Below are positions 1-27,850 of a stretch of 34,753 nt of DNA, piece by piece. The notes beneath the pieces are model-generated. The model was not told where the DNA came from. It made no database searches and saw only the letters and a list, made by a program, of their open reading frames with translations. The stretch spans positions 1 through 34,753 of the forward strand of contig JAIRPE010000010.1 of the NCBI GenBank assembly GCA_031257175.1, in the 5' to 3' direction. Source of the DNA: Eubacteriales Family XIII. Incertae Sedis bacterium. Its GTDB lineage: Bacteria; Bacillota; Clostridia; Peptostreptococcales; Anaerovoracaceae. The position numbers and the translations under genes are program-made. Positions within the stretch are counted from its first letter, which is position 1, and each line of letters opens with the position of its first letter.

Positions 1-57
1 GAATTAAAGGGATGTAGGGCGAAGCGGCCCAAAGCGGCGCCTTCCGGCGGAGCAGTA

Positions 58-158
58 ATACTTGTCCTTTTTTAAATTCCTCCCAAATTATTGGGCGGAC
101 GTCGGAAGATAGTATCTACCAATCCGCTTCAAGACAAGATTTTAAATGCGGGTTAGTG
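58..158 (+). repeat. Dispersed intergenic element, copy 1
   Basis: One of four full copies of a roughly 100-bp intergenic repeat; the others are at 19071-19172, 23769-23877 and 27626-27727. It opens with an ATACTTGTCC block and a T-run, then a CCCAA-ATTA-TTGGG inverted repeat, the shared block GACGTCGGAAGATAGTA, and a stem of AATCCGC (121-127) with GCGGGTT (148-154), where one pair is G-U compatible. Its right end runs straight into the AAGGAGG ribosome binding site of the adaptor gene, so it would form that gene's 5' untranslated region. It has no coding capacity. Confidence 0.85.
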
Positions 159-172
159 TAAGGAGGGAACAT

Positions 173-17862: not shown

Positions 17863-19041
17863 TCACATGGCGGGGACGCGCCTGCCTCCAATATAGACCG
17901 CTTTGGGCGCGCGGAGGTTGCCCAAATCCTCCAGCGGGCTTTTCTCCAAAGCGATGAAATCCGCGTGCCTTCCCGGCGCGATGGAGCCTATCCTGTCCTC
18001 CATGCGGCAGGAACGCGCCCCTTCGACGGTGATAATCCTAAGAGCCTGCTCGCGGCTCGCGCCGCAACGCTCGAGGCAGGCCGCCTCGAACCAGAGCGCG
18101 CCGTGAACCCCGTCCGTACCCGCGCACAGCTTCACGCCGCTCTCCAGCAACTTTGCCACCACCTGGTCATAGGTGTGCTTGACGGACTCGAGGCGGGCCT
18201 GCTTCACGGGGTCCAGGCCGCGCAGGCCGTCGGGATGGGCCATGGGGCTGAACGTGGCAGTGACCCAGACGCCCAGCTTCGCCATGCGCTCAATCTGCGC
18301 GTCCGTGGCCATGGTGGCGTGTTCCAGGGAACGAACCCCCACGTCCATGCAGAGGTCTATGCCGGGGCCGCCGTGGACGTGGGCGGCCACGTACTTGCCC
18401 AGCATCTCCGCCTCCTCCACGGCCACGCGCAGTTCCTCCCGCGTGCTGGTGCAGAACCCCAGCCCCACCTGCCCCGTCACCACGCCCCCGCTGCCGAAAA
18501 CCTTCAGCAGGTCTGCGCCCTTGGCCAGATTGACGCGGGCGTTCTTGCGCATCCCCTCCACGCCGTCGGACACGGTCTGCCCCGTCTGCCCGTGCCCGTG
18601 GGTGGGGCTGAGGAAGGCTCCGCAGGGGCTGATGCGCGGCCCCACCACATAGCCTTCGTCGATAGCCCGCTTAAGCTCGAAGTCGAGGAAGTCGTCCTCG
18701 CCCATGGAGCGGGCCGCCGTCTCCCCCGCGTCCACATGCTGGCGGAGATAGAGAATGGCCTTGGCCACCTTGCGCGGCGGCGTCTGCTTGAGCTGCTCCA
18801 TCACCGTCAAGGGGTCTGTTCGATCCCCGTGGCTTATGGAAAAATGCTGATGCGCATCAATAAGGCCGGGCATGACGAAACAATCGCCGTAATCCAGCGT
18901 CTCGCCCAGCCCGTCCATGCCGTCGGCCTCGCCGGGCCTGCCGACCGCGCCTATCCTGCCGTTCTCTATGGTGAACCACCCGCGCTCAATAACCGCCCCG
19001 TCGGCGGTGAATAGCGTTCCTGTCTTTACCAGGGTCCTCAT
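17863..19041 (-). CDS. Metal-dependent amidohydrolase, imidazolonepropionase/prolidase-like, paralogue 1
   Basis: Cytoplasmic amidohydrolase-superfamily enzyme, 392 residues, ATG 19041 behind GGGAGG. All binuclear metal ligands are present: HQH (His64, His66), a lysine positioned for carbamylation (Lys180 in DLLKVFGSGG), His221/His223 in AAHVHGG, His241 in SLEHAT and Asp310 in AGTDGVHG. The sequence type matches the imidazolonepropionase-like/Xaa-Pro dipeptidase-like group, whose characterised members hydrolyse dipeptides or N-acyl amino acids. A true hut imidazolonepropionase is unlikely because no other hut gene is near. It is clearly paralogous to the gene at 19525-20700, with matching ligand spacing to within one residue. 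Its position next to a peptide importer suggests a role in breaking down imported peptides. Confidence 0.85.
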   Translation of the reverse strand: MRTLVKTGTLFTADGAVIERGWFTIENGRIGAVGRPGEADGMDGLGETLDYGDCFVMPGLIDAHQHFSISHGDRTDPLTVMEQLKQTPPRKVAKAILYLRQHVDAGETAARSMGEDDFLDFELKRAIDEGYVVGPRISPCGAFLSPTHGHGQTGQTVSDGVEGMRKNARVNLAKGADLLKVFGSGGVVTGQVGLGFCTSTREELRVAVEEAEMLGKYVAAHVHGGPGIDLCMDVGVRSLEHATMATDAQIERMAKLGVWVTATFSPMAHPDGLRGLDPVKQARLESVKHTYDQVVAKLLESGVKLCAGTDGVHGALWFEAACLERCGASREQALRIITVEGARSCRMEDRIGSIAPGRHADFIALEKSPLEDLGNLRAPKAVYIGGRRVPAM

Positions 19042-19070
19042 GCGGAACCTCCCGTTCTTATCTTATTCTT

Positions 19071-19172
19071 ATACTTATGCTTATTTTAAACTCCGCCCAA
19101 AATTATTGGGAGGGCGTCGGAAGACGACATTCGCCAATCCGCTCCAAGGTGACGTTTTGAACGCGGATTAGT
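19071..19172 (+). repeat. Dispersed intergenic element, copy 2
   Basis: Full copy of the roughly 100-bp repeat, in the same orientation as the copies at 58-158 and 27626-27727. It has ATACTTAT, the CGCCC...GGGCG and CCCAA...TTGGG inverted repeats, the GGCGTCGGAAGA block, and an exact AATCCGC (19136-19142)/GCGGATT (19163-19169) stem. Read on the minus strand it lies in the 5' leader of amidohydrolase 1, next to its ribosome binding site. Its right edge abuts the second repeat family at 19173. Confidence 0.87.
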
Positions 19173-19469
19173 ATTATTGCTCCACCGACTAAATGTTGCG
19201 CTGAAACCACTTCGGCGAGGATTTTTTCTGTCGGGCAAGGCGGCGGGTTCCGTTGATACTGGGAGTATCAGCGGGTTCCGCCAACGCGAGGCCATGCCTC
19301 GCTCCTACGCTCACTTCGTTCGCTTCGCTGTCCGTTTTTCCTGCCGCGCTGAAGCGCGGGGAAAAAAGGCAACGCAGTCCGACGGAAAAAAGACCGACGA
19401 ATGCGCAATGTTTAGTTGGCGGAGCAATATTCTCCACCGACTGAATGTTGCGCTGAAACCACTTCGGCG
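19173..19469. mobile_element. MITE-like element with inverted ends and a third end copy
   Basis: A 38-bp sequence at 19180-19217 recurs in direct orientation at 19432-19469 with 37 of 38 bases identical. The first part of it (TATTGCTCC...TTGCGC) also recurs inverted at 19403-19429 with about four differences in 27. The result is a unit of roughly 257 bp bounded by inverted ends, with a solitary third end attached. The interior has several hairpins: TGATAC-TGGGA-GTATCA, GCGAGGC/GCCTCGC, and a long one at 19335-19366 (TTTTTCC..CCGCGCT-GA-AGCGCGG-GGAAAAA). No transposase or believable gene is present. It separates the two amidohydrolase paralogues. Confidence 0.7.
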
Positions 19470-19524
19470 CGGCCTTGGGCGGCTTTCGGGGCCATCGCCC
19501 CCACGCGCCCCCATGAGGCGTCCC

Positions 19525-20700
19525 TCACTTCATCCGTCGGCCGCCGACGTAAGTGGCCGCCACTGCCCCTAGATTTTCTAAATTTTCCAGCGGGTCATCC
19601 TCAAGGGCTATGAAATCCGCGTATTTGCCGACTTCCAGAGTCCCCAATTTGTCCTCCACGCGGCAAGCCTTCGCCCCCTCGGCGGTAACAAAGCGGACGG
19701 CCTGCATAGGGCTGGCGCCGCATTTGCCTATATTCACCGCCTCGAAAGCTATGGCGCCATGCACCCCGTCGGTGCCGAAACTCATGGGCACGCCCGCCCG
19801 CAACAGCTTCCCGTACACGTCGAGAATCCGCTCCTGCACCTGCCGCAGGCGCTCCTGCTTGTCAGGAGGCAAAAGCCGCAGTGACTGGGGGTGCATGGCC
19901 GGGCTGAACGTGCCGGTCACCCAGGCGCCGGCCTCGGCTATGGCTTCGATCTGGCTGTCGCTGGCCAGGCAGGCGTGCTCGATGGAGCGCACCCCTCCCC
20001 GCAGGCAGAGGTCCAGACCGGGCCCGCCGTGGATATGGGCGGCCACGTACTTGCCCAGCATTCCGGCCTCAGCCACGGCGACGCTGATTTCCTCCAGATT
20101 GTAAGTGTGACGGCGCAGTTCCGCCTCGCTGCTGACGACGCCCCCGCCGACGAATATCTTTATGAAGTCCGCGCCCATGGCCAGATTCCTCCTGACCGCC
20201 CGCCGCACCTCCTCCGCCCCGTCAGCCGCCGAAAGGCCGATTTGCCCTTGGCCGTGGGAGGCGGTGATGACGTTGCCCGAGCAAATGACGCGCGGCCCCG
20301 CCATATAGCCTTCCTCAGTGGCGCGGCGCAGCTCCATGTCGATGAAATGCTCTTCCCCCATCGAACGTAGCGTGGTGACCCCCGCGTCCAGATGCTGGCG
20401 CATGTACAGCGCGGCCTTGGCTATTTTGCGTTGCGGCGGCTCGCCCATCTGCTTCGTCACGGGCATGGGGTCAATAGAGTCGGTGTGCGAAAGCCCCAAA
20501 TGGACGTGGGAGTCCACCATGCCGGGCATGACGCAGAACCCGGACAGGTCAATGACCGCCCCAATCCCGTCCATGCCCTCAAAATCATCCTGCCTCCCCA
20601 CATGGGTTATCACCCCGTCCTCGAAGGCGAAACAACCGCCCTCCGTGGGCCTGTCGCCCGCGCAGTCCAGCAGGCGCCTAGTCTTTACCAGCGTTTTCAT
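19525..20700 (-). CDS. Metal-dependent amidohydrolase, imidazolonepropionase/prolidase-like, paralogue 2
   Basis: Amidohydrolase-superfamily enzyme, 391 residues. ATG 20700 (MKTLVKTRRLLD) is supported by AAAGGA and by the matching start of its paralogue; the frame extends to 20748 without need. Metal ligands are His65/His67 (SHVHLG), Lys181 (DFIKIFVGGG), His222/His224 (AAHIHGG), His242 (SIEHAC) and Asp311 (FGTDGVHG). Segments such as AEMLGKYVAAH(V/I)HGGPG in both proteins show a gene duplication. As for paralogue 1, the likely substrates are dipeptides or N-acylated amino acids, inferred from family and from the importer downstream. It is the first gene of the minus-strand cluster and has a good promoter at 20849-20877. 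Confidence 0.85.
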   Translation of the reverse strand: MKTLVKTRRLLDCAGDRPTEGGCFAFEDGVITHVGRQDDFEGMDGIGAVIDLSGFCVMPGMVDSHVHLGLSHTDSIDPMPVTKQMGEPPQRKIAKAALYMRQHLDAGVTTLRSMGEEHFIDMELRRATEEGYMAGPRVICSGNVITASHGQGQIGLSAADGAEEVRRAVRRNLAMGADFIKIFVGGGVVSSEAELRRHTYNLEEISVAVAEAGMLGKYVAAHIHGGPGLDLCLRGGVRSIEHACLASDSQIEAIAEAGAWVTGTFSPAMHPQSLRLLPPDKQERLRQVQERILDVYGKLLRAGVPMSFGTDGVHGAIAFEAVNIGKCGASPMQAVRFVTAEGAKACRVEDKLGTLEVGKYADFIALEDDPLENLENLGAVAATYVGGRRMK

Positions 20701-20848
20701 CCTGATTCCTTTCAAGTCCCCAGGCCGCGCCCCCGCGGAGCCCCGCAAGGCCGCCCAACCCCCGCCCGCCCCACGACGGCAGGCGGAAGGCAGGCGGCAG
20801 GCACGGAAGCGACAGCCATTTCATGACAATAGTATTTCCTTAGACAAT

Positions 20849-23768: not shown

Positions 23769-23877
23769 CATACAACACCAATCCGCGTTTTAAGCGTCAC
23801 CTCGAAGCGGATTGGCAGATACTGTCTCCCGACGTCCGTCCGATGGTTTTGGGCGGAATTAAAAAAGGATAAGTATA
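23769..23877 (-). repeat. Dispersed intergenic element, copy 3 (inverted)
   Basis: Full copy in the opposite orientation, filling the flgN-flgK gap. Its stem is the best of the family: CCAATCCGC (23778-23786) and GCGGATTGG (23807-23815) pair over nine bases. The GACGTCGGGAGACAGTATC block and the T-run next to ACTTATCC are all recognisable on the minus strand. TATAAGG occurs on both sides (23762-23768 and 23874-23880), a possible 7-bp target duplication. The right-hand TATAAGG also contributes to the flgK ribosome binding site. Confidence 0.87.
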
Positions 23878-23889
23878 AGGAGCTTAGGC

Positions 23890-27013: not shown

Positions 27014-27613
27014 ATGAAACCGCTTATATCGATAGAGACCGTGCCGATCTCCATTGAGTACACCACCGTCAAAGCCGAGACGAGGCCGCGCCCCCAGGCG
27101 GGCGGCGACGCGGGCTCGGCGAAGCTGAACATCGCCAAGGGAGCCAAGCAGCTGACCATAAGCAGCGCCCCCATCAATATCCAGCTTCAGGACAAATTCG
27201 AGAATGTCGGCGACAGCATGGCCTACACGGCCACGGCTGAGTACTCCAAGGACGGCGTGCTCAGCATGAACGTGCGGATACAGGGCGACGCGGGCGCGGA
27301 CGGGGGATTGCGCTTCAAGGCCGCGGGGCAGGGCATCAACCGCATGGCTGACGCGTTGCCCAAATCCTCGGGCGCGGAGGCCCCGTTCTCCGAAATGAGG
27401 ATTAATTTTGACATGGGCGGCATCTCCCAGGCGCCGGAAATCCATTCCAGCGACGTGGAGGCCAGCTTCATGCCGCCTGACATACAGGTGGACATAAAGG
27501 AGTATCCCAGGGTCATCATTAAATACGTGGGCGGGCCCATATACTTCCCGCGCAGCTCCAACCCGAACTACGAGCCCCCCGCCAGCGAGGCGACCTTCAA
27601 GGCCGAAGCCTGA
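27014..27613 (+). CDS. DUF6470 family protein (YviE-like, flagellar-cluster)
   Basis: Protein of 199 residues whose position between flgL and fliW, and opening MKPLISIETVPISIEYTTVKAE, match the DUF6470/YviE family found in Bacillota flagellar clusters. ATG 27014 has AAGGAGGG nine bases upstream; a frame open from 26762 has no such support. The C-terminal DVEASFMPPDIQVDIKEYPRVIIKYVGGPIYFPRSSNP is compatible with the beta-rich family fold. No signal peptide, membrane helix or catalytic motif is visible. The molecular role of the family is, as far as I know, not established. Confidence 0.78.
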   Translation: MKPLISIETVPISIEYTTVKAETRPRPQAGGDAGSAKLNIAKGAKQLTISSAPINIQLQDKFENVGDSMAYTATAEYSKDGVLSMNVRIQGDAGADGGLRFKAAGQGINRMADALPKSSGAEAPFSEMRINFDMGGISQAPEIHSSDVEASFMPPDIQVDIKEYPRVIIKYVGGPIYFPRSSNPNYEPPASEATFKAEA

Positions 27614-27625
27614 GGCAGGGGTTCT

Positions 27626-27727
27626 ATACTTATCTTCTTTATGAGTCCCGCCCAAAATCATTGGGAGGGCGTCGGAAGATAGTAGCTGCTGATCCGCGTA
27701 AAGGTAACGTTTAATCGCGGATTAGCG
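27626..27727 (+). repeat. Dispersed intergenic element, copy 4
   Basis: Full copy in the DUF6470-fliW gap. It has ATACTTATC, the GCCC...GGGC and CCCAAAATCATTGGG inverted repeat, the GGCGTCGGAAGATAGTA block and the stem GATCCGC (27691-27697)/GCGGATT (27717-27723), where one pair is G-U compatible. A separate GC palindrome, GGGGCCGGCCCC, follows at 27750-27761. Confidence 0.86.
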
Positions 27728-27850
27728 CGCGGGCGGGCGGCGGCCTCGCGGGGCCGGCCCCGACGGCAAGGGTTCCTGACATTGGTAATCGGCCGCAGGC
27801 CGAGGGCCGTGGGAGGGTATGGGTTATTGGTATGGATAAAAGAGGTGATT

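Follow-up and report, generated by a model that had tools for sequence, protein, structure and literature searches.

A Family of Two-Hairpin Intergenic Repeats with MITE-like Features in a Family XIII Incertae Sedis Genome and Scattered Other Bacillota

Copies of the Repeat in the Window and Their Anatomy

The window, the whole 34,753-nucleotide stretch of DNA analyzed here, contains four copies of a two-hairpin repeat, designated W1 to W4. As judged by matches of the encoded proteins, the right end of W1 lies ~12 bp upstream of the ATG (173) of an HlyD-type gene, W2 is located between two paralogous amidohydrolase genes (17863-19041 and 19525-20748), the left end of W3 adjoins the Shine-Dalgarno sequence of flgK, and W4 occupies the gap separating fliW from a gene that ends at 27613. 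An earlier sequence-only reading had described four copies of ~100 bp; all of them are present, and with their flanking triplets they are a few bases wider than it noted (Table 1). A second repeat family abuts W2 (window 19177-19480, ATTGCTCCACCGACTAAATGTTGCGCTGAAACCACTTCGGCGAGGATTTTTT); further copies of this family lie at 19432 (95%) and in L096 at 1328-1582 (93%, 257 bp). A terminator-like stem is part of this second repeat, which also adjoins several other copies of the two-hairpin element.

Table 1. Positions of the window copies, the W2 hairpins and the lone right-end pieces
Feature	Position	Strand	Ends or pairing	Basis
Copy W1	56..161	+	TAA-TACTTGTCC...GGGTTAGTG-TAA	sequence; model hit 57-161, 109.8 bits
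Copy W2	19069..19176	+	TTA-TACTTATGC...GCGGATTAGTA-TTA	sequence; model hit 19070-19176, 111 bits
W2 hairpin A, inner stem	19093..19113	+	CCGCCC (19093-19098) with GGGAGG (19108-19113)	sequence, consensus pairing
W2 hairpin B	19135..19171	+	CAATCCGC (19135-19142) with GCGGATTAG (19163-19171)	sequence, consensus pairing
Copy W3, inverted	23773..23878	-	triplets TTA/TTG	sequence; model hit 107.4 bits
Copy W4	27624..27730	+	triplets CTA/CGC, right end decayed	sequence; model hit 103.1 bits
Lone tandem right-end pieces	L067 119-152; L154 2005; L163 3013-3043; L216 3788-3850			

The boundaries of the element could be mapped and were sharp in the aligned copies (TNA-TACTTATCC ... GGATTRGYA-TNA), with a length of ~106 bp in the source genome. 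In the consensus, TNA-TACTTATCC is followed by a T-rich stretch, CCGCCC-loop-GGGCGG, (G/A)CGTC and GGAAGATAGTA, and the right part consists of hairpin B, formed by TGCCAATCCGC...GCGGATTGGCA or TACTAATCC...GGATTAGTA, and then TNA. The first inverted repeat of the sequence-only reading is present but was drawn too short, as the left end TACTTATCC also pairs, imperfectly, with GGAAGATAGTA directly 5' of hairpin B, an outer pairing of hairpin A that is clear in other genera. The second stem, said to be paired in every copy, was indeed paired in nearly all of them, including both T-G cases; in W2, a single C-A mismatch lies close to the bottom of the stem. The terminal inverted repeats, TACTTATCC and TACTAATCC, match at 8/9 positions, and those elsewhere are shorter (TACT, or TATACT in the carrier genome G216).

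Copy Number and Context in the Source Genome

The source genome is a 2.04-Mb draft that is 88% complete, and multi-copy insertion sequences (IS) may be lost from such drafts. A blastn search with W2 as the query gave 51 matches in it, the best one other than W2 itself having E=5e-27, so that the similarity greatly exceeds what chance would give. A covariance model, R1, was built from an alignment (A2) of 28 source-genome copies and gave at least 150 matches at E<=2e-8 in the whole source genome and 162 hits in 540 kb around the copies. Since the weakest of the 162 hits are antisense or tandem echoes, we give the family size as at least ~145 copies. The genome-wide model search proposed by the sequence-only reading extended the family far beyond the four copies of the window. 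Some source-genome copies are arranged head to tail with a period of ~104 and one TTA common to neighbors, and some are followed by at least one 17-bp piece of the right end. Tandem right-end pieces of 14-17 bp (GCGGATTRGYATTAANT) without the remainder of the element were also observed in two genomes (Table 1).

The intergenic location and the use of both orientations, as first read from the window, were borne out: only 8 of 137 well-scoring copies overlapped a gene predicted by a home-made gene caller, although coding regions make up 83% of the sequence. Where the neighboring genes of the source genome are co-directional, the left end was nearer to the downstream start codon in 58 cases and the right end in 24 (p=0.0002). 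No such bias was observed in G216 (10 vs 13). The bias in the source genome could mean a host-side role or a regulatory side effect.

Patchy Relatives in Other Bacillota

Carriers amounted to 8 of 198 genomes and 5 of 92 genera in a family sample and to 3 of 398 genomes in a phylum sample. The relatives are patchily distributed in other Bacillota, and a 23-base pattern searched against public genomes named Clostridiales Family XIII MAGs, Syntrophomonadaceae (MAGs), Peptococcaceae, Clostridiaceae AS10tlH2TH_150, an uncultured Desulfotomaculum and the isolate Desulforamulus aeronauticus DSM 10349, some further matches to this pattern being chance ones without the element structure. Copy numbers estimated with a cross-genus covariance model, R2, were at least 149 in G216, 44 in G217, 34 in G215 and fewer in the others. 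No carrier was found among the plasmid and phage sequences searched; the 23-mer matched two viral contigs, of which L245 lacked the element structure, and viral carriers were rejected. In D. aeronauticus, a copy (L199 1315-1422) fills the gap between proA-like and proC-like genes, as read from their translations.

Covariation of the Two Hairpins

Covariation was examined in 26 sequences from about ten carriers. Paired cells amounted to 91.8%, as compared with 82.6% in shuffled alignments, a percentage that is partly by construction because the structure was drawn from the same 26 sequences. The stronger point is the number of two-sided compensatory changes, 71 against 20.5 in the shuffles, which answers the covariation test that the sequence-only reading had suggested. 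The covariation score was likewise 0.322 vs 0.153 in the shuffled set, and the signal was lost when the partners were slid by 1-3 columns. Full copies were mostly 105-108 bp long while the stem sequences changed, those of G217 being near 130 bp. The two-hairpin fold is thus kept across genera by compensatory change despite sequence divergence.

A constraint acting on RNA from one strand would favor G-T departures from Watson-Crick pairing. Among 150 source-genome copies, 199 G-T and 171 A-C departures were counted, and with the variable position in hairpin A left out there was no G-T excess. The near equality of the two classes argues against a strand-specific RNA.

Insertion and Target Duplication

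The triplets bordering the element on the left (T.72, T.62, A.82) and on the right (T.71, T.61, A.76) were near-identical in composition. The middle base of the left and right triplets was identical in 37 of 57 copies, against 26.8 expected (p=0.0005, permutation), and this association marks TNA as a target duplication of 3 bp. Copies with TGA/TGA and TCA/TCA were found in G195, and TCA/TCA also in G024. In G217, the outer triplets were identical in 9/19 elements of the A-B type, TGA/TGA among them, some of the others being bounded at an inner hairpin by the search pattern. The duplicated target is TNA in the source genome and most relatives, and TA in one genome.

Insertion was further examined at individual sites. 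G216 contains ~40 near-identical copies in unrelated flanks, and a filled and an empty site could be paired there: L284 (filled) and L303 (empty) were 94% identical over 126 columns crossing the junction, with a single TA in L303 and two in L284. In G217, a 240-bp composite copy at L304, flanked by TCA/TCA, interrupts the frame of an IS1595-type transposase; the frame is continuous once the element and one TCA are omitted, and a match to Pfam PF12760 (Zn_ribbon_IS1595) spans the junction of the flanks so joined.

A Probable Non-Autonomous Element and Its Possible Mobilizer

Taken together, these data very probably identify the family as a non-autonomous, MITE-like mobile element. Having no transposase of its own, it would be moved in trans. 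Insertion occurs at TNA or TA and duplicates this target, and the copies are dispersed mostly between genes. The hairpins would be kept for a DNA-level role in mobilization, or restored by conversion between arms, rather than for one strand-specific RNA. The sequence-only reading had favored a MITE- or REP-type element over a strand-specific riboswitch; its MITE branch is supported by the sharp boundaries, the target duplication, the filled and empty pair and the intragenic insertion, while its REP branch was not supported, as discussed below. Three observations count against the MITE-like reading: no autonomous partner with the same ends was found, the target duplication differs between carriers (TNA vs TA), and the copies of the source genome show an orientation bias.

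A transposase with matching ends, which the sequence-only reading had proposed to look for, was searched for and not found. The source genome gave no match to PF01797 (Y1), PF01609 (DDE_Tnp_1), PF13358 (DDE_3) or PF13340 (DUF4096), an absence that is weak evidence because the draft is 88% complete, and none of the four families was found in all carriers tested. No autonomous IS with matching ends was detected in these incomplete drafts by family searches, self-comparison or an end-pair scan of the other carriers. Self-BLAST of the 540 kb of source-genome loci gave only tandem repeats, the two-hairpin family and a second short repeat; apart from the tandem arrays, the dispersed repeats did not exceed ~260 bp. 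Long elements with TACTATT ends were considered as partners and rejected; the pattern gave four candidates, and the one examined (L339) contained only sugar-nucleotide genes.

It is improbable that the family represents a structured RNA leader or some other domesticated regulatory sequence maintained for the sake of its transcript. Such a role would agree with the covarying hairpins, the intergenic position and the orientation bias in the co-directional gaps of the source genome, but the bias is absent from G216, both orientations are used, the neighbors are unrelated genes, and one copy is inserted within a transposase gene. The departures from pairing show no preference for G-T, and Rfam gave no match at gathering or relaxed thresholds. 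By sequence, no T-run follows either stem on either strand; a terminator role was rejected on this ground, the sole terminator-like site near W2 lying in the second repeat. The near-equal G-T and A-C counts and the near-identical, recent copies in unrelated flanks support the sequence-only reading in setting a strand-specific riboswitch aside.

Mobilization as a REP/BIME-type palindrome by a RAYT, or as an IS200/IS605 derivative by a Y1 transposase, is highly improbable. Paired hairpins and same-orientation tandem arrays are shared with such repeats, the (G/A)CGTC behind hairpin A in source-genome copies resembles the tag of CGTC-tagged repeats (PMC3733652), and 8 of 12 other carriers contain Y1 genes. 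This tag, however, is confined to the source genome and not conserved in other genera, and Y1_Tnp was not found in the source genome, G089, G119, G024 or G215. The units are moreover ~100 bp long, with hairpins that reach the ends. A site-dependent target duplication is not expected of Y1 enzymes, and the duplication observed here varies with the site. A REPtron was suggested by the end of a Y1 gene lying ~190 bp away from the partial copy in L303 and by a degenerate Y1 near a copy in L304. This idea was dropped because L303 also contains the empty site of a repeat and the copy in L304 has inserted into an IS1595-type gene.

A refinement of the MITE-like reading, which does not exclude it, is that of an IS5- or IS630-type MITE with a master IS that the assemblies lack; we consider this rather unlikely. 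IS1031/ISL2-like IS5 groups and IS630 typically duplicate TNA or TA, and the duplications of the present family fit this. There is also a precedent in RUP, which is an IS630 case (PMC2229807). On the other hand, DUF4096 was found in none of the 13 carriers tested, DDE_3 in only 2 of 9 (with no PF13358 in the source genome or G216), DDE_Tnp_1 was not found in the source genome (G000), G024, G069 or G089, and the element ends matched no IS here.

Comparison with Known Repeats

The literature searched on Clostridia, Synergistetes and Desulfotomaculum, which included few subscription papers, held nothing relevant on this repeat; together with the Rfam result, this agrees with the initial remark that it was not recognized as a named family. 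The two-hairpin element works like a MITE, and by analogy its nearest known kinds appear to be RUP (size, TA ends, insertion in IS genes), CIR (two arms) and bcr1 (mobile, with no known transposase). RUP, the repeat unit of pneumococcus, is ~107 bp long, intergenic and present in ~100 copies, with ~9-bp terminal repeats, TA at its ends and insertions into IS genes (PMC2229807), and by description the two-hairpin family resembles it in all these respects, including copy number. RUP is, however, tied to IS630-Spn1 by shared ends, whereas no IS with the same ends was found for the two-hairpin family, which further differs in its mostly TNA duplication and in two covarying hairpins used as modules. 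CIR elements of Caulobacter and Brucella are intergenic and consist of a pair of long inverted repeats that give two arms connected by a linker (PMC2229807), a two-arm fold that by description is also seen here; they carry a GANTC methylation motif and have no established target duplication, in contrast to the target duplication and modular recombination of the two-hairpin family. The bcr1 repeat of the Bacillus cereus group is a high-copy, non-coding mobile repeat with no known transposase (PMC6542083), but it is associated with TTTAT repeats and with one species group, whereas the present family has TNA/TA and a patchy distribution over several families. GTAG/CGTC-tagged REPs and BIMEs are palindromic units in pairs and tandem clusters (PMC3733652), as are the units described here; REPs are 20-40 bp long and tagged, while in the two-hairpin family the tag is not conserved and RAYT/Y1 genes are missing in several carriers. 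The features of IS200/IS605 derivatives, a Y1 transposase and no target duplication, do not apply to it either.

Hairpins as Modules

Five hairpin units in 12 arrangements were distinguished in G217. The most frequent arrangements were A1.B (15), B alone (7), A2.C (6) and A1 alone (4), with chains of three or four being rarer, and some of the "alone" counts may reflect contig ends or diverged partners. Three of the single A1 units had TTA on both sides. Nearly every unit starts with TACT and ends with AGTA, as does the whole element. Because each hairpin has these ends, a transposase might pair the outer ends of a single hairpin or of two or more neighboring ones, which would explain the single-hairpin, recombined and tandem forms. 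We tentatively propose, as one possibility, that each hairpin is a self-contained end pair and that a transposase of an unrecognized kind moves runs of one to four; if so, elements would evolve by hairpin swapping with the pairing kept.

Bacterial MITEs are usually viewed as passive deletion derivatives with ends matching an IS. The family described here keeps its fold by compensatory change, recombines its units and spreads across unrelated anaerobes, and it has been amplified past 140 copies without a visible transposase. It accounts for many structured intergenic stretches of carrier genomes that would otherwise be puzzling, and it offers a tractable case for asking why mobile repeats keep DNA hairpins and what moves them, one carrier being the isolate D. 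aeronauticus DSM 10349.

Two further variants were observed. In a subfamily, the left end is swapped for another hairpin, AACATTTgaagcgcgg...CTTAAAATGTT (L074 13203, L093 2066, L112 2001), and copies in Gx485_bin113 (L202 2500-2715, L214 2278-2440) contain short nested inserts within the hairpins (CCCCTTTGGGGCACAAGAT, CTCGTGACC...).
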